Assembly (NCBI GenBank): GCA_014860005.1
Contig: JACZKP010000124.1
Location: 26,024-90,023 of the forward strand
Reading direction: 5' to 3'
DNA length: 64,000 nt
From: Verrucomicrobiota bacterium
Lineage (GTDB): Bacteria > Verrucomicrobiota > Verrucomicrobiae > Limisphaerales > UBA11358
Shown: positions 35,719 through 58,642 of the stretch, piece by piece
How positions within the stretch are numbered: position 1 is the stretch's first letter
Layout of the letters: each line of letters begins with the position of its first letter
Translations under genes and position numbers: made by a program
Notes under the pieces: generated by a model
The model's input: only the letters and a program-made list of their open reading frames with translations
What the model was told of the DNA's origin: nothing
The model's database searches: none

Positions 35719-35737
35719 ACGGCAACGGATTTACGGC

Positions 35738-38097: not shown

Positions 38098-38110
38098 AGA
38101 GGAACCTGCC

Positions 38111-38909: not shown

Positions 38910-38957
38910 TTCGACCAAACCATGAAGTTCTCAATGCTTGGTGGGCAACGAATGTCA

Positions 38958-39102: not shown

Positions 39103-39167
39103 TCCTTTCGTTGCGACTGCGGCATGTTGCCTGATTGCCTTGAACGACCCTTCACGAAACACGCGCG

Positions 39168-40673: not shown

Positions 40674-40691
40674 TTCCCCAATGCATCCAAT

Positions 40692-41162
40692 ATGAAAATC
40701 TCCCGCAATCCCTGGCCCTTTGGCATTATGCTCGCCCTCGGCTTGTTCGCCGCCGGCACGCTCGCGCTCATTGTCATCGCCTCCTCCCAGAAAGTGGACC
40801 TGGTTTCAGCGGACTATTACGAACAGGAAATCCAGTTCCAGAGTCAGCTCGACCGCCTCAACCGCACCGCGCCGTTTGGCGATGATGTCAAGATTGCCTA
40901 CGATGCTGCCACGCGCCGGATAACTATTTCCCTGCCGGCCGAGCACGCCAACCCGGACACCGCCGGCCGCATTCACCTCTATCGCCCGTCCACAACGGGG
41001 ATGGATCGGGAACTGGCGTTGGACCTCGACGCCGCTGGCGGTCAGAGCGTGGATGCCGCCGCGTTGCTGCCCGGACTGTGGAAGGTTCGCGTCCACTGGA
41101 CCGCCCGGAATCAGGAATACTTCGCTGATCGCAGTGTGATGGTGGGCGGCACGGGCAGTTAA
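40692..41162 (+). CDS. ccoH: FixH-family protein (CcoH)
   Basis: A 156-residue protein with one N-terminal helix (NPWPFGIMLALGLFAAGTLALIVIASSQKVDLV) and a periplasmic beta domain containing DYYEQEIQFQSQLDRLNR and AALLPGLWKVRVHWTARNQEYF. These match FixH/CcoH, an assembly partner of CcoP and CcoI. It lies 18 bases after ccoG and 21 bases before the TauE/SafE gene, so all three are probably cotranscribed. Confidence 0.88.
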   Translation: MKISRNPWPFGIMLALGLFAAGTLALIVIASSQKVDLVSADYYEQEIQFQSQLDRLNRTAPFGDDVKIAYDAATRRITISLPAEHANPDTAGRIHLYRPSTTGMDRELALDLDAAGGQSVDAAALLPGLWKVRVHWTARNQEYFADRSVMVGGTGS

Positions 41163-41183
41163 ACCGCGCTTCATTCTCGAACC

Positions 41184-41870
41184 ATGGAACTCTGGACCGC
41201 ATTCGCACTTGGGCTGGTTGGCAGCCTGCATTGCGCGGGCATGTGCGGCCCGCTGGCGCTCGCGCTGCCACCCACGGGCCACTCGGCGGCGAGCTATGCG
41301 TTTGGCCGCGTCGCCTACAACCTGGGCCGCGTGGTCACCTACTGTGTGCTCGGACTCATCTTCGGGCTGATCGGCAAAACGCTGTTGCTTGCGGGCGTTC
41401 AGCGCTGGCTGTCCATCGCGCTTGGTGTAACCCTCCTTGTCGGGCTGTTTGTCTCGCGCCGGCTGGCCTTGTGGCAGCCTGTGATTGCGCTCGTGGATCA
41501 ACTCAAATCCCGGATGGCCGGGCTGCTCCGGCGGCGCTCCTTTGACGCGCTGCTGGTGCTCGGCTTGCTGAACGGCCTGCTCCCGTGCGGACTGGTTTAT
41601 GTGGCCTGCGCCGGCGCGACCGCCACGGGCGATCTGTTCAAAGGCTCACTCTACATGCTGGCCTTCGGTTTGGGCACCGTGCCCATGATGCTGGCGATCA
41701 GTCTTTCCGGAAAACTCGTGCCGTTCTCCCTGCGACTGAAACTGCTCAAAGCTGTGCCCGTGGCGGTGTTCTTGTTGGCGGCCTTGCTGATTCTCCGCGG
41801 CATGGAACTCGGCATCCCCTATGTAAGTCCGGTGTTGTCAGGCAACGATGTAAGTTGCTGTGATCATTGA
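41184..41870 (+). CDS. TauE/SafE-like membrane protein of cbb3 loci
   Basis: A 228-residue polytopic protein of about six helices with GLVGSLHCAGMCGPLALALP near the N-terminus and LLNGLLPCGLVYVACAGA in the second half. Both conserved Cys-containing repeats (C-x3-C and PCG) are typical of the SafE/CcdA-like proteins that follow ccoGHI in many genomes and are suggested to help copper or electron transfer. The chain ends in SCCDH, a possible metal-binding tail. It is the last gene of the cbb3 group. Confidence 0.85.
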   Translation: MELWTAFALGLVGSLHCAGMCGPLALALPPTGHSAASYAFGRVAYNLGRVVTYCVLGLIFGLIGKTLLLAGVQRWLSIALGVTLLVGLFVSRRLALWQPVIALVDQLKSRMAGLLRRRSFDALLVLGLLNGLLPCGLVYVACAGATATGDLFKGSLYMLAFGLGTVPMMLAISLSGKLVPFSLRLKLLKAVPVAVFLLAALLILRGMELGIPYVSPVLSGNDVSCCDH

Positions 41871-41958: not shown

Positions 41959-42768
41959 TCAATAGTATGTCGCGTCGGTGGAGTAAGCGCGCACGACTCC
42001 GATTGCGTTATTGGCGGGGTTCAAGTTTGGCACATCAAATTGTTTTGTCGGCTTCCAATTCACGCGACCATCGCCGAAAAGCTGGTTCAATCCGGAGAAA
42101 GCCGCCGGGGCACGATCGGTATTGATGCCGGGATGTTTGCCGTGATTGTAACTCCACGAATCATCCACGTGCCAGTGTGAAAGTAGATCGCTCATCAGCA
42201 AACGGTCGGAGGCGAGTTCCTTCACCGTGAGATCCTGGGGTCGGGAGGCCGAATTGGAATGCCAGCGATCCACCCGGCCAAAGTAGGAATAGGTGCTGTT
42301 GAACCACCCCCAGGCTTGAATCACTGACGCCACGTCCGCAGGAATTGGCGCCGGCGGACTCGGACACCACCAGATTCCGCCCACGTCCGCGCCTGTTGGC
42401 GTGGGATTGACTCCGGGAATGTAAGGCGCCAGCGCTTCCAACGTGTAGTAACTCACACCCGGCACGTTCCGCATCGTCACCGTTCCGGGATGGCGGTAAA
42501 TGCCGGATGTGGCGCGCGTCTCCAACACCACGCCGTGATTGTCGTTGGCGTAAAGCGTGTGCGAAATCCCGAATTGCCGCAGGTTGGAAATACACTTGGT
42601 TCGCTTGCCTTTCTCCTTGGCCGTTGACAAGGCCGGCAAGAGCAGCGCGGCCAGGACAGCGATAATGGCAATGACCACCAGAAGTTCAATCAGCGTAAAA
42701 CCGTGAGCAATCCGCCGAGTTCGGCTCCGACTCGACAACTTGGAATTCCATGCGTCCATGGGCCACAA
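41959..42768 (-). CDS. Type II secretion pseudopilin-like protein (prepilin N-terminal motif)
   Basis: A 269-residue protein whose N-terminus carries the prepilin cleavage/methylation motif: [20 protein letters not shown] then [18 protein letters not shown]. After the helix come [28 protein letters not shown] and LFGDGRVNW, the X-DG pattern of the very large family of such proteins in Verrucomicrobia, Planctomycetes and Lentisphaerae. They are exported and assembled or displayed; their role is largely unknown. ATG at 42768 or 42759 may be the start. No secretion machinery genes are adjacent. Confidence 0.88.
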
Positions 42769-43849: not shown

Positions 43850-45616
43850 CTAGGGCAGGGGCATGCCGATGTCGTGGCTTAACCGGCTGGCCGCTTCAGG
43901 CGCGACCCATTTCACGAGGGCAACGAAATTGAGCAGCGTGGGGCTGTCGGGTTTGGCCTTGAACATGTTTCGCAGGCTGTTCACGACCTTGGTGTAGATG
44001 GCCGCATATTTCTCGTGCATCAAACGGCTGACGTAGGTTTCCAAAACGGCCTGGGCAATCGGGTCGGTCTTGCCATTGGCCAGATACGGGAGTTGACAGA
44101 AAATCCGAATCAACGAAATCACGTCCGCTTCGATGAGCGTGATCCAGCTTTGCTTGACCTCCTCAGCTTCATATTTGGCGTGCAACCGATCGCGAATGGC
44201 CGCAGCAACGGCGGCGGGGTCGGCTCGCCGTACGATCAGTTCCTTGATCTTGTCCCAGGCCAACTGCCGTTCCACTTCCGGCGAGAGTGTGGCGGAAGTT
44301 TTCAGTTCCTCCTCAAACTTGCCCAGCCCCAGTTCCGCGCCGAGCTTGCGGCCCAGAGCCTGGGCGTCCTCCCGGCGCATCCGGTCGCACGCCATGATGG
44401 CCCGCACGATCTGACGTTGCAGGTCCGGGTGAATGAGTTGTAGGAGCGGCGCCAATGTTTTGGGCGGCGGTGGTTTTTGCGGGGAAGTGGGAATGAGGTG
44501 CTTGACCAGTTCCGGGATGACTTCGTTCTGCACGACCTGATCGTGCTCGAGGTCCTTGCCGATGCGCAGCCGGAGGACATATTTGAGCGTGCGCGCCACC
44601 CCGTCGCCTTTGCCGACATTGTTTACCACCATCAGGCGATGATCCGGACTGATCACGAAAGCCAGCAGTTCTTCCGCCTGGAGGATTAGTTTTTCGTCGA
44701 GTGAGTCCTGGTCGCCAGTGAGCACCAATTGCTCGACCAATGCGGGCAGGCGCTGGGCAAAAATCACGTCCGGAGCTTCGGTGTTCTGGTTTTCGTAGTA
44801 GTGCAGCAGTTCCAGGATGAACGACAGTTTGAAGCAGGCAATCCTCTGCAATCGCGCTGGCTCCGTGTTCGTTTTGCTGCGCTGAACCTTCTCATACAAC
44901 GCCTGCAAGGCCTGGCGTTTATCGGCTGACAATCCGGAGGGTTGCTGGAACAGCGCTTCAGCATCGTTCTTGAAGGCGAGCACAATCTCGTCGGGTTTGG
45001 GGCGGGGATTCAGCTTGGGGTCGGTGGTCAGATCATTGAAGAAAATCAGGGCCTCCTCGCCGAATTCCCGGAGCACGCGCTCTTTGGGCAACTGGCCCTT
45101 CAGGAAACAACGATTGGCGCGAACCACGGCGGGGGAGAAGAACTCTTCCGGATGCGTAATGAGGGATTCAAGCATCGCTTTCTCCAGCGGGACATCCAGT
45201 TTGATCACAGCTTCCACTGCGGGTTTAACCGCCGCCGCCAGTTCGCGCTTGGTCTGGTCCAATGCCTTGAGCAGGGCGGGCTGCGAAAGGGCGGTTTCCA
45301 CTTTGCCTTTGGCCAGGGCGGCGCACACCTCGCTTACGTGGGCGTTGTGTTCGACGAGTCGGGAAACCTGCAAGCCCACGTCATTGATGGGCAGTCGGCT
45401 GACCAGGCCGGAAAGCAGCAACACCAGTTCGCTATGGGACTTCTGCCGGTGTTCGATCACCCGTTCCAGCAAGGCGCGGAGGACCTTGTTTTCCTGCTCG
45501 AGGGCGCAGCGTTCGGCCTCCAGTTGTCCCACTCGCAAATTCAGTTCGTGCCAGCCCTTTTGAACTTCATCCACGGACGTCACCGGGTGTTTCAAGATCA
45601 CGGTCTCGTGTGCCAT
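43850..45616 (-). CDS. Unrecognised protein with N-terminal coiled coil
   Basis: A 588-residue, probably cytoplasmic protein without signal peptide or membrane helix. Residues ~15-55 (ELNLRVGQLEAERCALEQEN then KVLRALLERVIEHRQK) are predicted coiled coil; the rest is mostly helical and charged. A segment HPEEFFSPAVVRANRCFLKG may mark a domain boundary. I recognise no enzyme or DNA-binding motif. Codon use is like the neighbours. ATG at 45616 is chosen over an upstream ATG at 45634 because the coiled coil starts soon after. It lies 130 bases downstream of the cytochrome locus in the opposite orientation to mtnP. Confidence 0.65.
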   Translation of the reverse strand: MAHETVILKHPVTSVDEVQKGWHELNLRVGQLEAERCALEQENKVLRALLERVIEHRQKSHSELVLLLSGLVSRLPINDVGLQVSRLVEHNAHVSEVCAALAKGKVETALSQPALLKALDQTKRELAAAVKPAVEAVIKLDVPLEKAMLESLITHPEEFFSPAVVRANRCFLKGQLPKERVLREFGEEALIFFNDLTTDPKLNPRPKPDEIVLAFKNDAEALFQQPSGLSADKRQALQALYEKVQRSKTNTEPARLQRIACFKLSFILELLHYYENQNTEAPDVIFAQRLPALVEQLVLTGDQDSLDEKLILQAEELLAFVISPDHRLMVVNNVGKGDGVARTLKYVLRLRIGKDLEHDQVVQNEVIPELVKHLIPTSPQKPPPPKTLAPLLQLIHPDLQRQIVRAIMACDRMRREDAQALGRKLGAELGLGKFEEELKTSATLSPEVERQLAWDKIKELIVRRADPAAVAAAIRDRLHAKYEAEEVKQSWITLIEADVISLIRIFCQLPYLANGKTDPIAQAVLETYVSRLMHEKYAAIYTKVVNSLRNMFKAKPDSPTLLNFVALVKWVAPEAASRLSHDIGMPLP

Positions 45617-45745
45617 GGGGTGAATCATCCTCAAAGAATCAGTCGCTTTCCACCCATTTTTTGGTCCGGTTCACGGACCTGCTATGAAGTCACCGAAACG
45701 CTGTCCGCCGCAGGAGCAGGCGTGGGGCGTTTCTATGCCGCGCGG

Positions 45746-47992
45746 TCAGAACCGGTATTGCAAGCTCGAGGAAACGTAGTGCGCCTGGTAGTCGTTGTTG
45801 CCGCCGGACGATTCATCCTCGTAGTCGAAGTAGCCGTATTTGAGGGTGAGGCGCAGGTTTTGCGTGAGTCGCCGGGTCAGGGTGGCGGTGACCCCGTGCT
45901 CCTCCGCGCCGGCGCCATACGGCACACCCACGCTGGAGTTGTCTTTGAAATTGTCCGCGCGGTAATAGGAGTACCCGACGTTCAGGTCGGTTTTGTCATC
46001 GAGCACCAGACCGGAGGAAAAATTCAGCGTCCAGTAATCGTTCTGCGCGTCGAGGATGGCCTGCGTGACATCGGATGCGGGCGATTTGGTTTCGCTGAGG
46101 ACGTAATTGAAGCCCGCCTGAAGATAAAGCCGCGACCACGGTGTCCAACTGACGTTCTGTGCGATGATGTGACTGGTCATTTCCGAGGATTCCACCCGGC
46201 CCAGGCCGGAAATCGAGTCCGGCTTCGTGTTGATGGTGGACAACTGATATTCATAACGGCTTACGAGCGTGAGGTTCTTAAGCGGGCGCACGGTGACCCG
46301 CACGTTGCCGTCGTAGGTCTCAAAGTCCTGCATCACCAGATAGGCGGGATAGCGATTGCCGCCGGCGTTTGGCGTGTTGTCCACCGAATGGTCGTAGTCG
46401 TACTCGTTGAGTTTGTAATAGCCGCCGGCGTCAATGCTGAAACTGCGCGTCGCGTACCACTTGGCCCCGGCGCTGTACTTTTGGAAGAAGCGGGTGTCCT
46501 CGGTTTCCCGTGCGATGGGCGCCGTGGGCCCGATGCCACCGTTTTCATCCCGGTTGCCTTCGCCCTGCGTCCATTCGCCGCGCGCGTAGAACACCCAGTT
46601 GGTTACGCCCGTGTAACGGAGGTCGAGACGTTCGCGCACATCGAGGCGGTCGCCATCGGTGTTCCCGGTAAAACTGCCGGAGGGATTGGCGCCGGTTTGG
46701 AAACCCCGTGACTCGGCGTCCCAATCCTCGCGCTGGATGCGCACGGAGGGCACAATCGTGAAGTGCTGGAACGGGATGAACATGAGATTCAGATTGGCCA
46801 CATATTCCTGCTTGCGCGAATTGCCGACGAGGTTGGTGTAGCCGGTGCCGTTGGCGGGATTGGGAACAAAAACCACATCGAATTCATCCCCGTAAATGCG
46901 GCTGCCGGTGAAGTCGTTGTCGAGGTCCGTGAACGAGAAACCAGTGGAGAAGAACAGGTTTTTCTTGATCCACGTTTCGCTGAACGCGTGGACGTTGAAC
47001 AGATCGTAACTGGCGCCTTCGCGGTCCGTGACGCGGCGCTGCGGGGCTGGATCAGGTTGAGGCCAAAAGGTCATCTTGCGGCTGTTGTCCAGGTCCGTGG
47101 TTTCGTAGCGCAAGCCCAAGCCGAGTGCGGTGGCTTTGATCTGATGCTTCGCGTCGAGTTCGAAGATGTGCGATTCCTCGTCAATGTCATAGAAGCTGGG
47201 ACTCAGACCTCGCGTCAGGCTCGTGCCGGTGGGATGGGTTGGCCCCCAGATAGTGGAACTCTTTTCGCCGTCACGGTAGCGGCGGGTGTACTTGAAAGTG
47301 AACGCCGGCAGGTTTTTGAGGGTCAGGCCCACTTCTGCGGAAAACTCGCCGCGATCCAGCGCGAGGGCGTCGCTGGATTCCCGCAACTCATACCAGACAT
47401 CGCCCGGCGAATACCAGCCGCCGTCGCCATTGTACCAGGTGCGGAAGTTCTCGTACTTGAAACGCAAAAAACCGAGGTTCTCTTTCGCCAGATCGAGGCT
47501 GAGTTTGTAGTCCTCGTTGTCAAAAATGCTGCGTCCATCCAGCGTGAGCGCGAAGCCTTTGCCGAGATCGCTTTGGTAATGAAAATCCTCGATCCCGCCA
47601 AACGCCTTGTGCTCCGTGCGGTGGCGTTGCTGGAATTGCTGCCTGCTGCCGCTGGTGAAGAAACCGCCGCCGGACAGCTCGATCCAACTGGTGTAAGTCT
47701 CCGTCCCGCCTTCAAAGATTTCCTCGGGGCTGAGTTTCGTTTCTTCCTCCGTCTCGGTTTCCTCCGCTTCGGTCTCTTCCATTTCCTCGGCGCCTTCGGG
47801 TTTTTCCTCTTCGGCCTCGGCTTGCTTCTCCTCCGTGCCGGATGAATTCTCCGCACTGGCTGGCTTCTCGGGTTCCTCGGCCCTGGCGTCCAGGCCGGCA
47901 ATCAACAGCCCGGCCAGCAGCAGCGCCTGTCCCCGCAGCAGGTGTGTTAACATCCGCTGCCATCCGTGTCCCCATGCTGGTGTTGCTTTCAT
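45746..47992 (-). CDS. MtrB/PioB-like outer-membrane beta-barrel protein
   Basis: A 748-residue outer-membrane porin. A signal peptide (LLRGQALLLAGLLIAGLDARA) is followed by a very acidic segment (residues ~33-90, rich in Glu and Thr) and then a long series of alternating beta strands. The last strand (VSSSLQYRF) ends in the aromatic residue needed for barrel insertion; the preceding LRLTLKYGYFDYEDES is typical of the MtrB/PioB family. These barrels sheath a multihaem cytochrome to pass electrons through the outer membrane. The cytochrome gene lies directly upstream (18 bases). No N-terminal CxxC, found in Shewanella MtrB, is present. Confidence 0.75.
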   Translation of the reverse strand: MKATPAWGHGWQRMLTHLLRGQALLLAGLLIAGLDARAEEPEKPASAENSSGTEEKQAEAEEEKPEGAEEMEETEAEETETEEETKLSPEEIFEGGTETYTSWIELSGGGFFTSGSRQQFQQRHRTEHKAFGGIEDFHYQSDLGKGFALTLDGRSIFDNEDYKLSLDLAKENLGFLRFKYENFRTWYNGDGGWYSPGDVWYELRESSDALALDRGEFSAEVGLTLKNLPAFTFKYTRRYRDGEKSSTIWGPTHPTGTSLTRGLSPSFYDIDEESHIFELDAKHQIKATALGLGLRYETTDLDNSRKMTFWPQPDPAPQRRVTDREGASYDLFNVHAFSETWIKKNLFFSTGFSFTDLDNDFTGSRIYGDEFDVVFVPNPANGTGYTNLVGNSRKQEYVANLNLMFIPFQHFTIVPSVRIQREDWDAESRGFQTGANPSGSFTGNTDGDRLDVRERLDLRYTGVTNWVFYARGEWTQGEGNRDENGGIGPTAPIARETEDTRFFQKYSAGAKWYATRSFSIDAGGYYKLNEYDYDHSVDNTPNAGGNRYPAYLVMQDFETYDGNVRVTVRPLKNLTLVSRYEYQLSTINTKPDSISGLGRVESSEMTSHIIAQNVSWTPWSRLYLQAGFNYVLSETKSPASDVTQAILDAQNDYWTLNFSSGLVLDDKTDLNVGYSYYRADNFKDNSSVGVPYGAGAEEHGVTATLTRRLTQNLRLTLKYGYFDYEDESSGGNNDYQAHYVSSSLQYRF

Positions 47993-48010
47993 GTGCTTCA
48001 AGGTTGCCGG

Positions 48011-48868
48011 TTAGAATCTGAGCGATGAACTGACGCGCGAGCCGTGAACTGCCTCGTGACAGCCGGCGGTCCAGCAATTCCCCTGTTGCACGCGCAAGGT
48101 GTGGTCCGAGCCGCCAATCAGGAGTTGTCCGTTGCGGACGGTTTGGAAATGGCACTTGAGACAGAGGTTGGAGTCGCGAACCGTCAGCATCTTCGCGTTG
48201 ACCGAGCCGTGCGCGTCGTGACAGGTCGTGCAGCCTTCATTCATGGCCTCGTGTGCGAACACATGCGGACCGCGCTGGGCGGGATGACATTTCAAGCAGC
48301 CTTCATTGCGCGACAACATCGCCATGCCGCCGGACGTGTGCGCCGAACCCTTGTGCGGAGAGTGACATTCGGTGCAGGTCATCCGGCCTTCGGGCACGGG
48401 ATGGTGGCTGGCGAGGTTGAACTTGCCGCGGATGTCCGCATGGCAATCGAAGCAAACCGTCTGGGTCGTGCGCGGCGGGGGATTTGAAAACTGCGCCCCG
48501 GGATCGCTGGAAACCGGACGTCCGGCGGTGAAACTGTAGGGCGGCATGATTTCGCCCCCGGAATCCGAGTGCAGGCTGCCGGGTCCATGACACGATTCAC
48601 ACCCGACATTCTTCGCGTTGGGACCCTCCGCGATCAGACGTGCGTGGTCAGCGGTGGCGAAGTCGCGATAGATTTCCTCGTGACACTGTGCACATTCCTT
48701 GGAGCCGATATAATTGGCCCCGGGCACTTCCGGCAGCACCACGGCCAGGCGATTCACGGTACGGCAGGAAATTCCGCTCATTACCAGCACGATCCCGCAC
48801 GCCGTAAAGGCGAGCGGTTTTGCCCAGCGATCCGGCAGTTTCCTGAGTGCGTCAAAGTTGAGCTTCAT
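48011..48868 (-). CDS. MtrA/DmsE-like periplasmic multihaem cytochrome c, eight haem sites
   Basis: A 285-residue exported cytochrome. Seven canonical CxxCH sites begin at residues 59, 90, 139, 165, 191, 213 and 236, and one wider site CWTAGCH begins at 265. The surrounding sequence (GSKECAQCHEEIYRDF, ASHHPVPEGRMTCTECHSPH, CTTCHDAHGSVN, CLKCHFQTV) is that of the decahaem DmsE/MtrA/PioA group, here with two haems fewer. The N-terminus has one hydrophobic segment. It is 18 bases upstream of the barrel gene and downstream of the nine-haem gene, giving the order nine-haem cytochrome > MtrA-like > barrel. Confidence 0.88.
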   Translation of the reverse strand: MKLNFDALRKLPDRWAKPLAFTACGIVLVMSGISCRTVNRLAVVLPEVPGANYIGSKECAQCHEEIYRDFATADHARLIAEGPNAKNVGCESCHGPGSLHSDSGGEIMPPYSFTAGRPVSSDPGAQFSNPPPRTTQTVCFDCHADIRGKFNLASHHPVPEGRMTCTECHSPHKGSAHTSGGMAMLSRNEGCLKCHPAQRGPHVFAHEAMNEGCTTCHDAHGSVNAKMLTVRDSNLCLKCHFQTVRNGQLLIGGSDHTLRVQQGNCWTAGCHEAVHGSRVSSSLRF

Positions 48869-48954
48869 CTTGAGGTGTCGGTTGTCGGTCGTATCAGATT
48901 CATCCCGCGTAACGCTCGCCCTGAATTCCTAATTCCATCCTGCGCCAAGTCATC

Positions 48955-50631
48955 TCACTTGTTTAGTTCCTGCTGGATCCAACTGCGGGCGGCGTCGAGC
49001 AGCTTGATGGAATGAGGGCCGTTGTGAACGCCGTAACTGCCGTCATACTTTACCAGGTACAAATTGAAACGCGCTTTTTTGATCGCCTCCGGAATTTGGG
49101 CCTGTTCCGTGGCGGTTGGGCCAGCGCCGCCGGACGAGAGATCACCCGCATTGGTGAATTCCCAGGCCCGCGCGCCGTATTTCGAGCGCAACGCTTCAGG
49201 CGCTTTGGTCGTGGCCCAAAGGTCCAGCGCGGCCTTCAACTGATCAATCTGGGTGGACACCGCCATAATGGTGAATTGCGTGAGCAATTCCGGGAAAGGA
49301 TGGCATGTGACGCAACTTTCGTAGGACTCGAGCTTGAATGTGTGGCCGGTGATCGCCGGTTGGTCCGCGCCCTGAGATTCCCCGGTTTGCATGTGGCAAG
49401 TGACGCATTGTTTCGCCAGCAACCGTCCGTGACCCGACGTTCCCGCCGGCGCCGTCCCCGCCGGCAGTTCGCCAATGCTCCCGAGCATCATGTTGTACTG
49501 CGGCGAGTGATGCGGCGGGCGGGCGGCGCTGTTCCAGGCGGCGCCGCGATGATTGTGGCATTGCGCGCAGACATTGATGTTCGGATCGTACTTGTTCGCG
49601 AAGACTTCGGAAGTGGTGAGAAAGTAATCGTTCGTGGAAGCCACTGGATTGCGCAACTGATGCGGATGCGTGGTTTCCTGATGCGGATTGTGGCAGACCA
49701 CACACGAAACGCCGATGTTGGCATCGCCCGCCACCGCCACCGCCGGGTCGAGCCCCTTGAGCAATGCCAGTCGCGACGAGCCGGAATGACAGCGTCCACA
49801 ACTGTTGATCCGGCCCGCCGGGTTCATGTCCTCCGTGACGATGGCGTGAGCGGAGGCGGCCCAATCCTCGTATAATCCGGGGTGAGGATAATCCGGTTGA
49901 TGAACGCCCATGTGACAGCCGCCGCAAAGTTGACCCGCAATCTCGACGCGGGGCCGGACGAGCGGATCATTTTCATTGGCCGCATGCAGGGCCGCAGGAC
50001 CATGGCAGCTTTCGCACTGTACGCCCGCCAGGTGGGCGCGGCTGGCGTCGTTCTCCTTGAAGCCGGTTGCGGTGCCGTAACACACCGTGTGGCAGGGGAG
50101 ACAGGATTTGTTGTTCTGCTGGCCAATGTCCTGAAGCGTTTTGTAGGCCCGCGCATGACTGGTATCCAAAGTGGAGGCATGAACGCCGGCATGACATTCC
50201 TCGCACGCGCGGTCACCGGCGAATTGCGGCAATGGACCGGACACGCGGAAGAACGCGTTGCTGTAAAGCACGTCAATGGTGGCGGTGTTCGAGAACTGCG
50301 GACCGGTCACCGCCTGCCAGTGCGGATCCGCGAGCGATCGTTTGAGCCAGACTTGGTAAGGCCCACAGGAGTTCTGCCAGTTCAATGTGATTTTGTTACT
50401 GGCGGTTTGAACGCTCGTGATCAGCGGCACCGTCGGCATGCCGCCCGGTGTCGGAACGGTAATGTGCCCGCGTTCAACCCCGTTGGCGGATGGGCATAGC
50501 AGCACAACTGTGCTGACGATCAAGCCTAGCGCGATGGCGCGCGGGTTGCAGGTTGATGAACTTGTCCGGGGAAGCGACCGGAGACCTTTAGTGATGGCTG
50601 CGACGGCTTCAGATGTCCTATGGTGGCCCAT
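48955..50631 (-). CDS. Exported nine-haem cytochrome c with FN3-like N-terminal module
   Basis: A 558-residue exported cytochrome with nine CxxCH motifs (CEECH, CLPCH, CESCH, CGGCH, CGRCH, CVVCH, CAQCH, CVTCH, CVTCH). An N-terminal module (KITLNWQNSCGPYQVWLKRS ... AFFRVSG) resembles the FYRV-type modules of other exported proteins here. The C-terminus has LVKYDGSYGVHNGPHSIKLL, shared with the paralogue at 52210. ATG at 50631 gives a signal peptide (ALGLIVSTVVLLCPSANG); an in-frame start at 50688 adds a doubtful basic stretch. First gene of the minus-strand conduit run. Surface location is inferred from gene order and the Ig-like module. Confidence 0.85.
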   Translation of the reverse strand: MGHHRTSEAVAAITKGLRSLPRTSSSTCNPRAIALGLIVSTVVLLCPSANGVERGHITVPTPGGMPTVPLITSVQTASNKITLNWQNSCGPYQVWLKRSLADPHWQAVTGPQFSNTATIDVLYSNAFFRVSGPLPQFAGDRACEECHAGVHASTLDTSHARAYKTLQDIGQQNNKSCLPCHTVCYGTATGFKENDASRAHLAGVQCESCHGPAALHAANENDPLVRPRVEIAGQLCGGCHMGVHQPDYPHPGLYEDWAASAHAIVTEDMNPAGRINSCGRCHSGSSRLALLKGLDPAVAVAGDANIGVSCVVCHNPHQETTHPHQLRNPVASTNDYFLTTSEVFANKYDPNINVCAQCHNHRGAAWNSAARPPHHSPQYNMMLGSIGELPAGTAPAGTSGHGRLLAKQCVTCHMQTGESQGADQPAITGHTFKLESYESCVTCHPFPELLTQFTIMAVSTQIDQLKAALDLWATTKAPEALRSKYGARAWEFTNAGDLSSGGAGPTATEQAQIPEAIKKARFNLYLVKYDGSYGVHNGPHSIKLLDAARSWIQQELNK

Positions 50632-50925
50632 ACGTATGCATCCAACTCTACGCCGTTGGCCGGTTCGGGCTATGCAGATATTGCCCATATCCTCGCGTAT
50701 TTTGTTGTGCTACTTCTGTTCGGCGGGAGCAGCATCCCATCACCCTCCCCGTGACGCAAGGCCAATGAAAGCGGAAATGCAATTTGAGCGGCGACAACAG
50801 CACGGCCGAAAGCAACGCCGCTGCTAGACCGGCGGGGCAAAAAATGGCCGGCTCAAGTTTTCCTCGCCTGCCCCGGCCATCTCTGCTAGACGGAAACCGA
50901 AGTATTGGAGATCAGGACACGTGCC
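50632..50925. other. Divergent spacer in the cytochrome locus with overlapping inverted repeats
   Basis: The 294-base gap between the two divergent halves of the locus. It contains two overlapping inverted-repeat pairs: GGGGCA (50834-50839) with TGCCCC (50869-50874), and ATGGCCGG (50844-50851) with CCGGCCAT (50873-50880). The pairs are interleaved, so they exclude each other or form a pseudoknot. A 9-base direct repeat, CTGCTAGAC, lies at 50821 and 50883. No known riboswitch is recognised. Confidence 0.35.
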
Positions 50926-51885
50926 ATGAAAGGAATCGCGTCGGACAGGATTAACCGGATTGAGACCAAGCAGCCACTGCGATCAGGTGTGCATGCCCGG
51001 TCGCAGATCGTCGTTCTGCTGGTTGGCTTGGTGCTTGGGCTTGCGCTGGGTGCGCTCTGGGTGTTTCGCGCCGCAAGTCACAAAGAGCCAACCGGAGTTG
51101 CTGAGGCGTTGTCGGAGCGGGCGGAATTCGCCGGATTGACAGAAGCGACGAAGTCAGTCTTGCAGCGTTTGGACACCCGTGTGGAAATCCGCTTTTATTC
51201 GCTCCTGGGCGGAACCCGCGCCGCCGAAGCGTTGGAGGATTTTGCCGGTCGGGTGGAAGGATTGTTGTCTGCTTATCAGCGCGCGGGTGGGGGCAAAATC
51301 GGGGTGACGCGCATTACTGCCGCGGATCGTGATGCGAAGGCGGCGGCGTTGTCGGATGGCCTCGAGCCGCTCACTGTTGGCCGTGGCGAGCAGGGATATC
51401 TCGGCATCGCTGTGGAGGCGCGTCAGGAAAAGGTGGCGTTGCCGCGGCTGCTGGCGGAGTGGGAGCCGGCGTTGGAATTTGATTTAAGCCGGGCCATCGC
51501 GCGCGTGAGCGGCGGATCGGCAACCGTCCCGGCGAGTCCGGTGCTCAATCCAGCCCCGGTGGATTCGGTTTCCGCCGAAGAAGTGACCCGCGCGCTGCCC
51601 AACCTCGCGGCGTTGTCTCTGGAAGAGGCGACTCAGAAGTTGCGCGAAGCGGCGCTCGAAGAGTTCAAGGCGGCGGTGAACGAAATGCAGGTCAAGGTGA
51701 ATGAAGCCCAGCAACGCCTCGCAAAGGCACGCGGGCAGAACTCTGAAGCCGAGCTGGCGTCCGCCGTGAAACAACTCCGGCAACTGCAATCGGAACAAAG
51801 CGAATCACTCGCGCAAATATCGCGACGACTCCAGGCCCGTATCGCCGCAGTGGAACGGATGAAGGGCACTCAGCCGCAACCTTGA
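50926..51885 (+). CDS. Single-pass membrane protein with GldG/ABC-auxiliary-like domain
   Basis: A 319-residue protein: a short basic cytoplasmic part, one helix (QIVVLLVGLVLGLALGALWVF), then a periplasmic domain with LTEATKSVLQRLDTRVEIRF, GKIGVTRITAADRDAKAAAL and QGYLGIAVEARQEKVALPRL, which resembles the GldG-type auxiliary domain of ABC transporters. A long C-terminal coiled coil (VNEAQQRLAKARGQNSEAEL onward) follows. No ABC ATPase or permease is nearby. Together with the downstream nine-haem gene it suggests a membrane-anchored helper of the cytochrome locus. ATG at 50926 is preferred to 50905. Confidence 0.6.
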   Translation: MKGIASDRINRIETKQPLRSGVHARSQIVVLLVGLVLGLALGALWVFRAASHKEPTGVAEALSERAEFAGLTEATKSVLQRLDTRVEIRFYSLLGGTRAAEALEDFAGRVEGLLSAYQRAGGGKIGVTRITAADRDAKAAALSDGLEPLTVGRGEQGYLGIAVEARQEKVALPRLLAEWEPALEFDLSRAIARVSGGSATVPASPVLNPAPVDSVSAEEVTRALPNLAALSLEEATQKLREAALEEFKAAVNEMQVKVNEAQQRLAKARGQNSEAELASAVKQLRQLQSEQSESLAQISRRLQARIAAVERMKGTQPQP

Positions 51886-52209
51886 TAATTTGTGGGCAAC
51901 GAGTTGCAGAGTTGCGATTCTGTTCCTGGGTGGGTTCAATTGGGGGTGAGCCGCTAACCGGAACTTGTTCACGCTGCCGTATTGGAGGGTCTGGTCGGCG
52001 CACGGCCATTCGCGTGAGGGTTCGCGTGAATTGCGTTAATACTGGCCGCCTGAAGTCAATCATTCCTGCCTCGCCATTTTTCTGGTTGCCGTCTGCCGGG
52101 CAAGGGATGTTTGGTTTTTGGCAAAAGCGGAGTAGCTCGTTTCAAGGGCAGGCTTATGCTCACCGCAAGTTGTGTGAAATAGAAAGTTCCAATCCTCAAA
52201 AGTGCGATT
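51886..52209. other. Gene-free leader before second nine-haem cytochrome
   Basis: Three hundred and twenty-four bases with no supportable ORF. The element TTCGCGTGA occurs twice around 52008-52030. It was checked for a GEMM-type (c-di-GMP) riboswitch, common before multihaem genes in other bacteria; the conserved core was not found. No clear promoter was identified. Confidence 0.5.
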
Positions 52210-54423
52210 ATGAAAACCCAAGAATCCCGTCATAGATTGTCAGCGCATCTGCTGTCCGTTGCCTTGATGGTTGCCTCCACCTTCACGGTCGTGGCCCAGC
52301 AAGGTCAGATCGGTGCGCGCCCCCTGACCCCGCAAGAAATCAAAGATTATGCCCTGCCTGCCGCCACCCAGACTTCCGGCGGTTTGTTCACCGTCGGTTT
52401 GGGCCAGCCCGTGTATCTCGAGGCCCAGATCCGAACCACAGTCGCGGCCTCTAATATATTGGGCGTGACTTGGGAATTAACCACCAAGCCGATCGGCTCG
52501 GCGGCCACCCTGGAAGCCAGTCCCATTACGGCCAACATGCCCATTTACAGTCCCGGTGATCGCGGATTCTATCAGGTGGCACCTGCGGATGGTCGCCGGA
52601 TGCTGCGCCCCGATGTCACCGGCCAATACATTGTGACGGCCACGGTGGCGACGAATGGCGGCACGCTGGTGCTCACGCGCGAGGTGACCGGCGCGACGTA
52701 CCTGGGCAGCCAGACTTGCATGCTTTGCCACAGTGGCGGATTCCTACCCGACATGGTGACGCCGTGGTCCAAGACGCATCATGCCACCGCGCTGACCAAT
52801 GCCGTGGATGGCCATTACGGCACGCACTTCAACCAAAACTGCATCAAATGCCACTCGGTCGGCTACGACACAAATCCTCTCGCTGTGAACGGTGGGTTTG
52901 ACGACGTGCAAGCACAGACCGGTTGGACGTTCCCGACCACGCTCACCAATGGTAACTGGCTGGCGATGCCACAATCGTTGCGAGCAAAAGGCAACGTGCA
53001 GTGCGAGAGTTGCCACGGCCCCGGCAGCGAGCACGCCACCTCGCTCGGAACTGTGAGCAAGATTTCCGTCAGCTTCAGCGCAGGCGATTGTAACCAGTGC
53101 CATGATTCCGAACCGTATCACGTCAAAGGCGTAGAATGGGCCAACTCCCTGCACTCCGAAGCCACCCGCACCCCCACGGGCGAAAGCCGCGCAGCGTGCG
53201 TGCGCTGCCATTCGGCGATGGGTTTCACGGATTCCATGGCCGGCCTGCCGCAAAGTCAGCACCGCACAGCCTACGAAGCCATTACTTGCGCCGCCTGTCA
53301 CGATCCGCATGGCGAGCCGACGAATCCCAGTATGTTGCGCACGGTGGCGCCGGTGACCTTGATGGATGGTGTTACCACCATCAGCAACGCGGGCAAGGGT
53401 GCCTTGTGTGTGAATTGCCACATGAGCCGTCAGAACGCCGCCACGTATGTCGAAACAGCAGCGGGAAGTGGCAACTTCGGTCCGCACTATGGTCCGCAAG
53501 CGGACATGCTGGCCGGCGTCAACGCCTATACCTATGGCAAGGAAATCCCCAGTTCCGCCCATCGTGAGGTGGTCGAGGATTCCTGCGTGGCTTGCCATTT
53601 GCAGAACGTCAGTGCTTCCCATCCCGCGTTCGGGCAGGTGGGCGGCCACACCTTCCGTCCCGGTTGGGACGGCGGCACGCCGGACGACAAATCGGATGAC
53701 GTTCACCTGACCGGTTCGTGCGTGGACTGTCACGGCAACATTGATACGTTCAACCTCAAGCGCGCGGACTACGACGGCAACGGCGTGGTGGAAGGCGTGC
53801 AAACCGAGGTAAAGCACCTGCTCGACAAGTTGGGCAATCTGCTTCCACCACTTGGCTCGCCCACCGTTACGGTCACGGCCAGTTACACGCGCCAGCAATT
53901 GCGCGCGGCATTCAACCACAAGTTCGTGTATTACGACGGCAGCTACGGCGTCCACAACGTCAGCTACGCGGTGGGCTTGCTCAAAGCGTCCATCGCCGAT
54001 CTCACCGGAGATGCCAACGAGGACGGTCTGCCCGATGAATGGCAGATTCAATACTTCGGCTCCGCTGGCCATCCCAACGCCGCACCGAATGCCACACCCG
54101 CCGGCGACGGCGTCCCCAACTGGCTCAAGTATGCCTTGGGGCTGGATCCGATGGTGCCGGGCGTGGTGCTGCCGGACGGCGTGGTCTGGGCCAATGCCGG
54201 TCCTACCGAGGGTGGAACCGACACGATCCAAATCTACACCGCCGCCGAAGTGGCGTTTAACACCGAAGTGGGCAAGACCTACCAACTCCAGGCCATTTCC
54301 AACCTGGGTGGTGGATGGCAGAACGTCGGCGCGCCGGTGGCTGGCACCGGGAACGCGTACAGCTTCGTTACCTCCACCCGGAACAATGCCCAACAGTTCT
54401 TCCGCGTGGTCAGCACGCCGTAG
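52210..54423 (+). CDS. Exported nine-haem cytochrome c with PKD-like N-terminal and FYRV-type C-terminal modules
   Basis: A 737-residue exported cytochrome. After a signal peptide (HLLSVALMVASTFTVVAQ) comes a PKD/K319L-like beta domain (LGVTWELTTKPIGSAATLEA ... VTGQYIVTATV), then nine CxxCH motifs (CMLCH, CIKCH, CESCH, CNQCH, CVRCH, CAACH, CVNCH, CVACH, CVDCH). The block VYYDGSYGVHNVSYAVGLL matches the end of the paralogue at 48955. A calcium-type repeat (GDANEDGLPDEWQIQYFGSA) and a final module ending QQFFRVVSTP follow. Such modules suggest display on the cell surface. A strong terminator lies just downstream. Confidence 0.85.
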   Translation: MKTQESRHRLSAHLLSVALMVASTFTVVAQQGQIGARPLTPQEIKDYALPAATQTSGGLFTVGLGQPVYLEAQIRTTVAASNILGVTWELTTKPIGSAATLEASPITANMPIYSPGDRGFYQVAPADGRRMLRPDVTGQYIVTATVATNGGTLVLTREVTGATYLGSQTCMLCHSGGFLPDMVTPWSKTHHATALTNAVDGHYGTHFNQNCIKCHSVGYDTNPLAVNGGFDDVQAQTGWTFPTTLTNGNWLAMPQSLRAKGNVQCESCHGPGSEHATSLGTVSKISVSFSAGDCNQCHDSEPYHVKGVEWANSLHSEATRTPTGESRAACVRCHSAMGFTDSMAGLPQSQHRTAYEAITCAACHDPHGEPTNPSMLRTVAPVTLMDGVTTISNAGKGALCVNCHMSRQNAATYVETAAGSGNFGPHYGPQADMLAGVNAYTYGKEIPSSAHREVVEDSCVACHLQNVSASHPAFGQVGGHTFRPGWDGGTPDDKSDDVHLTGSCVDCHGNIDTFNLKRADYDGNGVVEGVQTEVKHLLDKLGNLLPPLGSPTVTVTASYTRQQLRAAFNHKFVYYDGSYGVHNVSYAVGLLKASIADLTGDANEDGLPDEWQIQYFGSAGHPNAAPNATPAGDGVPNWLKYALGLDPMVPGVVLPDGVVWANAGPTEGGTDTIQIYTAAEVAFNTEVGKTYQLQAISNLGGGWQNVGAPVAGTGNAYSFVTSTRNNAQQFFRVVSTP

Positions 54424-54473: not shown

Positions 54474-54725
54474 GTTGCCCGCGCTCGGTTGGACTTGGTT
54501 CATCCACGAGCTACTGCCGTGCATCCCGTCAACATAAGCTGTCCAACCTGCCGCCCACGCGTCAACCGCAAGCAGGGTTGATGACCTGTCGCGCGGCACG
54601 ATTGCAGCCCTCACTCCGTCAAAATCCGTAAGACAATTGACAAGCGCCGTGTAGCGGCTGGCAGCCGGACGGTGAAACTTTGCGGCGTAAATACTGGCGG
54701 GCGCGCACCGCCGGTTCATGGCGCC

Positions 54726-55478
54726 ATGCAACGAATCAAACCGGAATGCTTCAAGCCGCTTAACCAGAGTGCAATCCTGCGCACCCTTCAGCGATGTCCG
54801 CTGTTCTCCGGCACTGGCGCGGAGGACCTGGCCGCCGTGGTGGAGTTGTCGGAAATGAAATCCGTGGCGCCGGGCGAGTACCTGTTTCGCGAAGGCGGAA
54901 CGGTGCGCGGGTTTTACGTGGTGCGGCGCGGCGCGGTCAAAGTTCACCGGGTGAATTGGATCGGCCGGGAGCAACTCATTCACCTCTACCGGCCCTTTGA
55001 ATCGCTGGCGGAGGAAAGCCTGGTCTCCGAGTTGGGTCATCACGCCGACGCGTGTGCCATTGAGCCGACCGAGTTGGTGATGGTCCGGCGCGCGGGCTTT
55101 ATGGCCCTGCTCAAGGAACGCCCGGAACTGACGATGTGTCTGTTGCGCTCGACGCAGCGGCACCTTTGCCAGCTCATCGAATTGCTGGATGACCTGACCC
55201 TCAAGGACGTAAAGACCCGCATTGCCGAATGGCTGGTCGGGCACTGCCCGGATCCGCAAAGCTCCAAACCGTGCAGCATCGAACTGGACACCACCAAACG
55301 GGTGCTGGCGGCGGAACTGGGTACGGCCAGTGAAACCTTCTCGCGGGCGTTGGCCAAATTCCGTGCGCAAAAACTGATCTCCACGGACGGCAATTTCGTT
55401 ACCTTGCATAGTCCCACCCGCCTGGCGCGGTACGTCGCCCGCAACCGTCGCGATTTGCCGGGCATGAACCGGAGTTGA
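54726..55478 (+). CDS. Crp/Fnr-family transcriptional regulator
   Basis: A 250-residue regulator. The N-terminal cyclic-nucleotide-binding fold (about residues 20-140) shows CPLFSGTGAEDLAAVVELSE and SVAPGEYLFREGGTVRGFYV with VVRRGAVKV; the C-terminal winged helix-turn-helix has TKRVLAAELGTASETFSRAL followed by AKFRAQKLI. Fnr-type iron-sulfur ligation is not evident, since N-terminal cysteines are few and not in the Fnr pattern. Proximity to hemE and hemN, and to the cytochrome locus, suggests control of haem-dependent respiration, possibly in Dnr fashion. ATG at 54726 is chosen. Confidence 0.87.
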   Translation: MQRIKPECFKPLNQSAILRTLQRCPLFSGTGAEDLAAVVELSEMKSVAPGEYLFREGGTVRGFYVVRRGAVKVHRVNWIGREQLIHLYRPFESLAEESLVSELGHHADACAIEPTELVMVRRAGFMALLKERPELTMCLLRSTQRHLCQLIELLDDLTLKDVKTRIAEWLVGHCPDPQSSKPCSIELDTTKRVLAAELGTASETFSRALAKFRAQKLISTDGNFVTLHSPTRLARYVARNRRDLPGMNRS

Positions 55479-55633: not shown

Positions 55634-56806
55634 ATGAACGAATCTACAATTCAGGCAGGCTCGCAGACGGCCCGACAGAGGACGGCTGACCGAAGCGCCG
55701 GTGAACTGACGAGCCGTCAGCGATTTCTCAATGCCTGTCATTGCCGGCCCAATGATCGCCCTCCCGTGTGGCTGATGCGCCAGGCAGGACGTGCGTTGCC
55801 GGAATACCGCAAGCTCAAGGAGACGTACACGTTCGTGCAGCTCGTGCAAAATCCGGAACTCGCCGTGGAGGTAACGCTGCAACCCGTGCGCCGGTTCGGG
55901 TTTGATGCTGCCATCCTGTTCAGTGACATACTGGTGATTCCTGAAGCGTTGGGGCAGACCTATCGCTTCAAGGAGACGGGCGGGGTGCAGATGGACTTCG
56001 CAGTGCAATCGCGCTCGGATATCGAAAAACTCTCCGTTGAGCAGGTATGTGAGAAGCTGAGTTACGTGGATCAGGCCCTGCGAATCCTGCGTCGGGAACT
56101 GGGCGATCAAACCGCGCTGATTGGCTTTAGCGGGTCGCCGTGGACGCTGGCGACGTTCATGATGGAGGGCGCCAGCGTTCCCAAATACAGCCGCGCGCTC
56201 GCGCTCTTTCGTGAAGACCCGAAGACTTACTTCGCTCTCGCGGAGAAACTCACGGCCGCCGTCGCCGCGTATTTGCAGATGCAGGCGGCTACGGGCGTGG
56301 ACGCGCTGCAAATCTTTGACAGCCACGGCGGCCATCTGGCACCGACGGAATTTCAGGAAGCCAGCGGCCGGTGGATGCGGGAGATTATTGCTTCGCTGCA
56401 TCGTAGCCACCCTGGTGAGGAGGCGGGTTCAGCGGCAACCTCGGAGTCCGCCTCGTTACCTCGGCGGCTACTGAAGGTTGCCCCGGTGATTGTTTTCTCG
56501 CTCGGCACGCACGGCAACTGGCCGGACTTGGTCGCCTCGGGTGGTAACGTCATCGGCATTGACTGGCAGACCTCGCTGGCGGATGCGCGCAAACATGTTT
56601 CCGAGGGCATCGGATTGCAGGGCAACTTGGCGCCGGCTTTGTTGAGTGATGCCACGCCGGAAGGGGTGGCGTGCGAAACCAAGGCAGTGCTCGAAGCCAT
56701 GCGAGGTCGCAATGGGCATATCTTCAACCTTGGCCACGGTTTGACGCCGGGCGCGAAGCTGGAGAATATCACCGCGCTGGTGGAGACAGTCCGTGCATTC
56801 AAATGA
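55634..56806 (+). CDS. hemE: Uroporphyrinogen decarboxylase
   Basis: Converts uroporphyrinogen III to coproporphyrinogen III in haem synthesis. The 390-residue protein has the start signature RPPVWLMRQAGRALPEYRKL, the second conserved block GFDAAILFSDILVIPEALG, FSGSPWTLATFMMEG, IFDSHGGHLAPTEF and NLGHGLTPGAKLEN. A ~35-residue N-terminal extension precedes the fold, and a ~25-residue insert lies before the APVIVFSLGTHGNW segment. It follows the Crp/Fnr gene by 155 bases. A repeat-rich gap separates it from hemN. Confidence 0.96.
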   Translation: MNESTIQAGSQTARQRTADRSAGELTSRQRFLNACHCRPNDRPPVWLMRQAGRALPEYRKLKETYTFVQLVQNPELAVEVTLQPVRRFGFDAAILFSDILVIPEALGQTYRFKETGGVQMDFAVQSRSDIEKLSVEQVCEKLSYVDQALRILRRELGDQTALIGFSGSPWTLATFMMEGASVPKYSRALALFREDPKTYFALAEKLTAAVAAYLQMQAATGVDALQIFDSHGGHLAPTEFQEASGRWMREIIASLHRSHPGEEAGSAATSESASLPRRLLKVAPVIVFSLGTHGNWPDLVASGGNVIGIDWQTSLADARKHVSEGIGLQGNLAPALLSDATPEGVACETKAVLEAMRGRNGHIFNLGHGLTPGAKLENITALVETVRAFK

Positions 56807-57265
56807 GCCCGCCCATGAACGTCCTGTGGCTGCGACGCCTCGTCGCAGCAGGTGGAGGCGACGCCCCCGTCGCCCCTCTCCCGCTGTTTCCCGCGACGGG
56901 GGCGTTGCGGTCACCGTCTGCGACCGGGCGTCGCAGCCTCGGTTGGTTCAAAGCGCAAACCCTGACTTGGGGAATTCTCTCCTTGGAACGCGGAGACACA
57001 GCGCGGCGAAGCCCCAACCAGAGCGCGGGCCGAAGAAAACCGCAGAAACCGCCGAGACGCGATACACGCCGAGCTTTGTCGAAGCGGATTGTTCTCTGCG
57101 TCCATCGCGTCTCTGCGGTTGGATTGCGGCCCCAAGAATCTTCGCAGGCCGCGACGAAGTTGGGAGATAGCACTGCGACGAGCGCACAGAAAGCGCGGAG
57201 AGCACAATCTTTTGTGCGCCGAACCTCCCTGTTCTCCGCGTTTCTGGATTTTGATTTGTAGCCGA
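56807..57265. other. Gene-free, repeat-rich spacer between hemE and hemN
   Basis: About 460 bases with overlapping ORFs on both strands, none plausible. It begins with a 111-base inverted-repeat element (listed separately). The rest is a decayed low-complexity tract; one part reads CTCTGCGTCCATCGCGTCTC then TGCGGTTGG, a degraded member of the CGCAGAGACGCAGAG family found in intergenic DNA of several phyla. No promoter was identified. Confidence 0.5.
56828..56938. repeat. Inverted-repeat element of 111 bases, MITE- or REP-like
   Basis: Perfect 12-base ends, GGCTGCGACGCC (56828-56839) and GGCGTCGCAGCC (56927-56938). Inside, GCGACGCCCCCGTCGC (56858-56873) pairs along 16 bases, with one G-T, with GCGACGGGGGCGTTGC (56893-56908). 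Each end also folds alone (TGCGACG/CGTCGCA; TGCGAC/GTCGCA). The nesting suggests a mobile or structured element rather than chance. No transposase is encoded. Confidence 0.55.
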
Positions 57266-58642
57266 ATGAAGACGCTGAATGTTGATCTCGAACTGGTACG
57301 CAAATACAACGTGGCCGGGCCGCGTTACACCAGCTACCCGCCCGCGACAAGATTCACCGACACAATTTCATGGGAGCAACTCGCCCTCAAGCTGGAGGAG
57401 AACAACCGCACCGCGCGCGATCTCTCGATCTATTTCCATATTCCGTTCTGCGAAACGCTCTGCTGGTTCTGCGGTTGCACCACGGTCATCACGCTCAATC
57501 ACGACAAGGGCCGCGACTACATTGATTATCTTGGCCGTGAAGTGGCGCGGATGGCGGCCCAACTCAACCCAGATCGCAAGGTCGTTCAACTCCACTTCGG
57601 CGGCGGATCGCCCACGTTCCTTCGGCCAGACGAAATTCGTCGCCTCGGCGAGATCATCCATAAGCACTTCAGTTTTTCGCCCGACATTGAAGCGAGTGTG
57701 GAGGTGGACCCGCGCCGGCTTACGCGGGAACACATGGTGGCATTGCGCGAGATCGGCTTTAATCGCGCCTCGATGGGCGTGCAGGATTTCGATCCCCAGG
57801 TGCAGCAGGCGATTCACCGCATCCAGCCGCGCGAAATGACGCAGCAGGCGATGGGTTGGATGCGTGAGTTGGGTTATGGCTCGATCAATCTCGATTTGAT
57901 TTACGGTCTGCCGCACCAGACGCCGGCGTCGTTTAACGAAACGCTTGATACCGTGCTGATGATGAAACCCGACCGGCTGGCGGTGTTTAGCTACGCGCAC
58001 GTGCCGTGGATCAAGCCGTCACAAAAAATTCTGGAGCAAAAAGTCCTGCCCACGCCGGAATCGAAATTGCAGGTGCTCAAGCTGGTCATCGAGCGCCTCA
58101 CGGCGGACGATCAATATGTCTATATCGGCATGGACCATTTCGCGAAGCCGACCGACGAACTCGCCGTGGCGCAGCGCAACAAGCAGTTGCAGCGGAATTT
58201 TCAGGGCTACAGCACGCGGGCCGGCTCGGACATTTACGCCTTCGGGATGTCCGGCGTGTCGCAAGTGCCCGATGCCTACTGGCAGAATGAGAAGGAACTA
58301 CCGAAGTATCAGGCTGCGGTGGACGCCGGACGCGTGCCGTTGCACAAGGCGTATTTCGTGACCCCGGAAGACAAAATCCGCCGCGAAACCATCATGCGCG
58401 TAATGTGCGATCTCTCGCTCGATTTTGCTGCCATGTCGCGGAAGCTGGGCATCAACTTTGAACAACACTTCGCCAGTGAGCTGGCGTCCCTCGCGCCCTT
58501 CGCGGCTGACGGACTGGTGCTCCGCACGGCTGACGGTTTGGAAGTCACGGACGCCGGCCGCTTGTTCATCCGCAACATCGCCATGTGTTTTGACAACACG
58601 CTGGCACCCGCCGGCGAACGGCGGCACTCGAAAACGATTTAG
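57266..58642 (+). CDS. hemN: Oxygen-independent coproporphyrinogen III oxidase
   Basis: Radical SAM enzyme that turns coproporphyrinogen III to protoporphyrinogen IX without oxygen. The 458 residues include the N-terminal YNVAGPRYTSYPPATRF, the iron-sulfur site YFHIPFCETLCWFCGCTTV (C-x3-C-x2-C), QLHFGGGSPTFLRPDEI, GFNRASMGVQDFDPQVQQAI, INLDLIYGLPHQT and a C-terminal HemN domain. These are the signs of true HemN rather than HemW. ATG at 57266 is chosen; upstream codons of the open frame lie in the repeat spacer. Its presence implies haem synthesis at low oxygen, in line with cbb3 use. Confidence 0.95.
   Translation: MKTLNVDLELVRKYNVAGPRYTSYPPATRFTDTISWEQLALKLEENNRTARDLSIYFHIPFCETLCWFCGCTTVITLNHDKGRDYIDYLGREVARMAAQLNPDRKVVQLHFGGGSPTFLRPDEIRRLGEIIHKHFSFSPDIEASVEVDPRRLTREHMVALREIGFNRASMGVQDFDPQVQQAIHRIQPREMTQQAMGWMRELGYGSINLDLIYGLPHQTPASFNETLDTVLMMKPDRLAVFSYAHVPWIKPSQKILEQKVLPTPESKLQVLKLVIERLTADDQYVYIGMDHFAKPTDELAVAQRNKQLQRNFQGYSTRAGSDIYAFGMSGVSQVPDAYWQNEKELPKYQAAVDAGRVPLHKAYFVTPEDKIRRETIMRVMCDLSLDFAAMSRKLGINFEQHFASELASLAPFAADGLVLRTADGLEVTDAGRLFIRNIAMCFDNTLAPAGERRHSKTI

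Follow-up and report, generated by a model that had tools for sequence, protein, structure and literature searches.

Electron flow through porin-cytochrome conduits can go in either direction. PioAB and MtoAB are assumed to carry electrons inward, and in Geobacter the quinol-linked ImcH and CbcL belong to outward pathways. MtrA, a cytochrome of the Shewanella conduit, is a soluble periplasmic protein. For Verrucomicrobia, He et al. 2017 (PMC5615132) described gene clusters that encode a porin of 20 or more strands and an eight-haem cytochrome, some of them also an extracellular multihaem cytochrome, and electron transfer to humics was proposed; a homologous cluster is named there for Opitutus terrae PB90-1. 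Freshwater members are portrayed there mainly as (poly)saccharide degraders, and the same porin system is described again for humic lakes in a 2019 paper (PMC6344600). OcwA has been proposed as a cell-surface terminal reductase of Thermincola potens, for which slow nitrite reduction and a reaction with hydroxylamine are described (PMC6703420). The passages of PMC7829351 that deal with OcwA place it among nonahaems of Gram-negative bacteria, with no tie to a conduit. Among the matches listed in a search of the open-access literature, no report joining OcwA-type cytochromes to a verrucomicrobial porin conduit was found.

The locus analysed here lies in a window (the whole stretch of DNA under study) of 64 kb. 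It shares with the clusters described by He et al. (PMC5615132) the phylum, a porin predicted to have 20 strands or more and the adjoining eight-haem cytochrome, and since that combination has been reported, the conduit is a member of a published kind. Compared by description, it differs from these clusters by two putative outer cytochromes of OcwA type in one locus and by an MtrB-fold barrel with a probable lipoprotein octahaem that ends in a CX4CH motif; the main text of PMC5615132 never uses the word 'lipoprotein'. The conduit is known in outline, and its novelty lies in what the outer partners are. The data show the genes and their order, their homologies, the predicted folds, histidine conservation and co-occurrence, whereas insertion of the octahaem into the barrel, the outside position of the nine-haem proteins, open coordination, outward flow and the substrate are inferred. 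The main reading, to which we assign a probability of roughly 0.68, is a porin-cytochrome conduit of the verrucomicrobial kind with the octahaem in the barrel and electrons passing outward to OcwA-type nine-haem cytochromes.

Gene layout and conservation of the locus

The minus strand carries, in the order given in an earlier note on this DNA, the genes for a nine-haem OcwA-type cytochrome (48955..50688, 577 aa), an eight-haem MtrA-type cytochrome and predicted lipoprotein (48011..48868, 285 aa) and an outer-membrane β-barrel of MtrB fold (45746..48001, 751 aa from a TTG start, with an in-frame ATG at 47992). The gaps of 86 and 18 bases named in that note were recovered as well, the latter if the barrel begins at its ATG (9 bases with TTG). 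On the plus strand, the membrane helper (50905..51885, 326 aa) and a second nine-haem OcwA-type cytochrome (52210..54423, 737 aa) are both present as claimed. The helper has one N-terminal TM segment, with a hydrophobic segment from residue 35, and a DUF7088 domain (PF23357, E 1.5e-8); a homologue lies beside the conduit in 7 of 40 related loci (L049, L050, L052, L053, L054, L058 and L060). Downstream of the barrel, the gene at 43850-45634 is not counted as a part of the conduit, because only in the nearest relative was it matched beside the barrel.

The octahaem contains seven CX2CH motifs and a terminal CX4CH and the nine-haem proteins contain nine motifs each, so that the previous count of 26 holds (25 CX2CH and one CX4CH). 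No other stop-to-stop frame of 80 aa or more in the whole 64 kb has more than one CXXCH. Clustering by chance is ruled out by protein shuffles (2000 each), in which the mean number of CXXCH was 0.02-0.08 and the maximum 2. In the closest relative, a MAG named 'Verrucomicrobiia bacterium TGS_VER2' (L001/L049), the same genes occur in the same order with 95% identity in the eight-haem protein, in agreement with the verrucomicrobial origin that had been considered probable.

The barrel was matched in 48 of the 188 genomes sampled from the class, in one of them (G024) over 51 residues only; at phylum level, the octahaem was matched in 20 of 194 genomes, several of these matches being weak. For the analysis of gene neighbourhoods, 40 loci (L049-L088) were fetched mainly by rank of the barrel match and are thus selected for barrel presence. 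They contain 41 barrels of more than 600 aa, L057 being outside these counts because its barrel is cut by the contig start, and 40 of the 41 have the octahaem immediately 5′ on the same strand, the single miss (L067) being located at a contig end. A gene order restricted to this genome, named in the earlier note as an argument against a conduit, is thereby ruled out. A nine-haem homologue was located within 9 kb of 15 of the 41 barrels and of none of the other 26 (some loci are cut by contig ends), and therefore the nine-haem partners are not obligatory. ORFs with at least four CXXCH numbered 93 in 694 kb of conduit loci versus 1 in 380 kb of control sequence, for which 20 regions in 15 of these genomes were placed by hand at round coordinates.

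For each nine-haem protein, 13 genomes contain strong relatives (E <= 1e-40), which makes 18 genomes for the two together, and all of these bear a barrel (P 5e-9, kinship ignored). The rows kept at this threshold are in part partial or split, with few candidates scored per genome; weaker rows, including a short 577-aa-type fragment in G104, were left out (at E <= 1e-3, the totals are 99 and 29 genomes). The locus is real and conserved, and it is probably an electron conduit.

Two further observations concern related loci. Two octahaem-barrel pairs stand in tandem at L002 (9833-15938), L080 and L084, and one pair is located on a 3.4-kb contig labelled Dechloromonas (L004), perhaps a misbinned verrucomicrobial contig.

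The barrel and the eight-haem cytochrome

The AF2 model of the barrel has 26 long strands and so exceeds the 20 transmembrane strands by which He et al. 2017 defined their porins; its N-terminal stretch (about residues 43-95) is acidic, modelled with low confidence and free of cysteine. The terminal Phe pointed out earlier is invariant in all 54 aligned barrels. At the level of sequence, no match to Pfam and NCBIfam models was obtained at E <= 0.1, nor was there any match of the barrel profile to solved chains at E <= 1. PF11854 was found in none of three related genomes, in a search of no proven sensitivity because the control genomes likewise stayed below the cut-off. The likeness to MtrB/PioB that had been claimed thus holds for the fold, where MtrB was placed before all other barrels listed in the structure search, and not for a family-model match by sequence.

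An alternative is an ordinary porin or TonB-dependent receptor that stands by chance beside cytochrome genes. TonB-receptor barrels dominate the fold-search lists, and the Foldseek TM-scores of the receptor FyuA (0.44/0.51) are close to those of MtrB (0.45/0.50), which has the best E-value. However, VIA-align returned MtrB as the top fold match about 8 Z units ahead, with barrel residues 102-751 aligned, the secondary-structure list of the model contains no folded N-terminal plug domain, and the octahaem adjoins 40 of 41 barrels. Disfavoured by fold and gene order, this explanation is very improbable. The strand number of the predicted MtrB-like barrel suggests a lumen wide enough for a cytochrome.

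The 285-aa octahaem gave a match to MtrA (6r2q_A) with an E-value of 1.1e-26. Its haems 1-2 align with MtrA haems 1-2 and its haems 3-8 with MtrA haems 5-10; therefore one haem pair is missing after haem 2. Compared with Shewanella MtrCAB/MtrAB, the protein has eight haems, not ten, and a lipoprotein-like N-terminus, the barrel has no sequence match to any model and the outer partner is nearest to OcwA. The scores against TIGR03508 (153.6; cut-off 192.2) and NF041028 (171.4; cut-off 325) are below the cut-offs, so that of the MtrA/DmsE-like character proposed before, the MtrA homology stands, whereas the ten haems and the DmsE-family cut-off of MtrAB-type proteins are not reached. With this qualification, the MtrB-like barrel fold, the MtrA-like octahaem and their widely conserved order bear out the MtrAB-like conduit that had been proposed.

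Eight CX2-4CH motifs, as in the eight-haem cytochromes of He et al. 2017, are present in the window protein and in all 47 relatives that entered the count (231-419 aa long, taken from L049-L088 and from 7 of 13 other loci, shorter fragments and the 1258-aa ORF of L087 being outside the counts), and the eighth motif is CX4CH in 46 of the 47. In 48 aligned octahaems, eight further histidines are invariant (75, 100, 156, 172, 206, 220, 256 and 275 in window numbering), enough for bis-His ligation of all eight haems. Cys35 is likewise invariant (48/48) and follows a hydrophobic run and then usually Ser, which indicates a lipobox and a protein that is probably lipid-anchored. N-terminal signals were judged by a simple hydropathy cut and by eye: both nine-haem proteins have hydrophobic N-terminal segments that passed the cut and would fit the signal peptides claimed for the locus, whereas the barrel and the octahaem failed it and look signal-like by eye.

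In the proposed mechanism, the 26-strand barrel would span the outer membrane with the octahaem lipoprotein inside as a haem wire. In MtrA, as described in PMC12203936, haem 1 is on the periplasmic side and haem 10 on that of the cell surface. By analogy, the octahaem would have its haem 1 at the periplasmic mouth, close to the lipid anchor, while haem 8, which carries the CX4CH motif and corresponds to MtrA haem 10, would be exposed at the outer face.

The nine-haem cytochromes

The 577-aa and 737-aa proteins are homologous (hhalign probability 100%, 392 columns). The former gave a profile match to OcwA (6i5b) with an E-value of 1.3e-27; its hydrophobic segment begins at residue 51, and its true start is perhaps downstream of the called one. 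The latter consists of an N-terminal Ig-like domain, a nine-haem domain with C-terminal helices and a C-terminal tail. With Foldseek alone, the 737-aa model had no match at E <= 0.001, and its OcwA match comes from a second look only, after this null result. The closest solved relative of the nine-haem proteins is OcwA, and with nine CXXCH and the OcwA fold both are OcwA/NrfA-superfamily proteins.

Nine haems are shared with OcwA of Thermincola potens, and c554-like and NrfA-like halves with OcwA and OmhA (6qvm, Carboxydothermus ferrireducens), as are the C-terminal helices with a DGS-GVHN motif and the histidines near haems 2 and 5. Unlike in the Gram-positive OcwA system, extra beta domains and an MtrAB-like conduit are found here, and an invariant His takes the place where Met seems to ligate OcwA haem 9. 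By composition, the locus resembles Geobacter OmbB-OmaB-OmcB and kin as these are described in PMC7096707 and PMC6344600, with an eight-haem cytochrome, a porin and an outer cytochrome, the last having 12 haems in Geobacter versus nine here.

An outer partner of MtrC type was considered as well. PF22113 (MtrC/MtrF domains II/IV) matches the 737-aa protein with 47.4 bits (cut-off 30), and most of the homologues listed for either nine-haem protein have it as a precomputed annotation, yet the solved-structure searches point to OcwA, and no TIGR03507 match was obtained at E <= 0.1. The earlier view that they are not obvious MtrC/OmcB types is broadly right, the PF22113 match of the 737-aa protein being the point against it; a surface partner new in kind, which the earlier note had thought possible, is not supported, as both proteins fall in a known superfamily.

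The alignments (A1-A3) comprise 53, 49 and 32 hand-picked homologues of 120 listed for each, and invariance is meant within these. Outside the N-terminal domain, eight non-motif histidines are invariant in each nine-haem family, a number that would fit seven distal ligands and one pocket His. In 83 aligned nine-haem sequences, the first His of the haem-5 pocket is present in all and the second in 54, and one His of the haem-2 pocket in 72. Haems 2 and 5 may have open coordination.

No lipobox was seen by eye in the nine-haem proteins. The tail of the 737-aa protein is common to other verrucomicrobial proteins and, as a common module of the phylum, possibly has a role in export or anchoring. 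The tail region (residues about 590-735) also matches parts of ORFs of ~200-4700 aa in many genomes that lack the conduit. A location of the nine-haem proteins outside the cell would be in line with a tail common to large proteins and with the co-occurrence with the conduit. The four distant loci L076-L079 carry, immediately 5′ of the octahaem, a relative of the 737-aa protein in place of the 577-aa protein, indicating partner swapping, and this replacement argues that the nine-haem proteins serve the conduit.

The two proteins could instead be soluble-substrate enzymes of the NrfA/c554 superfamily, acting on nitrite, hydroxylamine or sulfur oxyanions either outside the cell via the conduit or in the periplasm apart from it, and not in mineral or humic respiration. 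The 577-aa family has c554, MccA and NrfA matches, the pocket histidines are largely kept, and OcwA itself acts on nitrite and hydroxylamine. However, the closest solved-structure matches are OcwA and OmhA and not NrfA or octahaem reductases, and a periplasmic enzyme has no need to co-occur with an outer-membrane conduit; we consider this alternative doubtful. There is an even chance, in our estimate, of a hybrid machine in which an MtrAB-type conduit is combined with terminal enzymes of the OcwA/NrfA superfamily that have two open-site haems each, one of the two paralogues perhaps docking on the conduit and the tailed one perhaps reaching further out.

Direction of electron flow, neighbouring genes and biological meaning

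In the main reading of an outward conduit, electrons from quinol would enter via ImcH/CbcL-like inner-membrane cytochromes encoded elsewhere, pass through the wire to the outside, where one or both of the OcwA-type nine-haem cytochromes would hand them on to minerals, humic substances or small oxidants at haems 2 and 5, the putative open-coordination sites. The family-scanned part of the genes of the window contains no recognised quinol dehydrogenase. A six-haem homologue of ~500 aa occurs in 17 of the 40 related loci (including the query's own locus and a partial gene in L071), with a NapC/NirT domain in both of two scanned, and such proteins are presumably ImcH-like. A relative of a multihaem protein whose membrane part resembles formate dehydrogenase gamma, and which we take to be CbcL-like, was found in 6 of 40 (including the query's own locus and partial genes in L063, L069 and L081). 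In the nearest relative (G001), homologues of both types are located on another contig.

The window also contains, ~4 kb from the conduit, a cbb3 cluster (33034-41870) with genes for a metal-transport P-type ATPase, fused ccoNO, ccoP, ccoG, fixH and a DsbD-like protein. The protein encoded at 41959-42768 has, by eye, a prepilin-like N-terminus, presumably of a pseudopilin type common in Verrucomicrobia. The oxidase genes ccoNO, ccoP, ccoG and fixH (35929-41162) would suit electron uptake to oxygen, i.e. an inward conduit by which electrons from Fe(II) or another reduced solid feed the cbb3 oxidase, and the Crp/Fnr regulator, hemE and hemN that adjoin the conduit would fit as well. A ccoNO homologue near the conduit was found in only 1 of 40 related loci (28% identity), a weak argument against this because the ccoNO of the window is ~8-10 kb from the barrel and thus beyond many of the fetched loci. 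Moreover, quinol-linked ImcH/CbcL-like cytochromes recur in related loci, and the OcwA precedent is a reductase. An inward conduit is quite unlikely in our judgement; the related loci favour outward flow, and the conduit probably passes electrons to something outside the cell.

The regulator (54672..55478, plus strand; PF00027 and PF13545) belongs to the Crp/Fnr family and has a 75% identical homologue after the barrel in L057; it may regulate the conduit locus. A search for the Fnr-box TTGATNNNNATCAA with up to two mismatches gave 25 sites versus 18.2 expected, with 11 of 100 shuffles reaching 25, and hence no evidence of regulation. The genes hemE and hemN (55634-58642) adjoin the conduit here and likewise in L050, L057 and L063, a neighbourhood that suggests a linked haem supply.

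The conduit, whose barrel occurs in about a quarter of the genomes of one class (48 of 188), would let Verrucomicrobia respire onto humics or metals. With the nine-haem proteins assigned to the OcwA type, the surface partner becomes open to direct tests. From the pairing of an MtrAB-like wire with an OcwA-type reductase it would follow that terminal reductases can be exchanged as modules and that diderms also make use of the OcwA type. If true, the hybrid would join two lineages of extracellular electron transfer that are thought to have arisen separately, would link nitrogen- and sulfur-cycle enzymes to outer-membrane wires, and would mean that a diderm reduces not only solids but also small molecules outside the cell.
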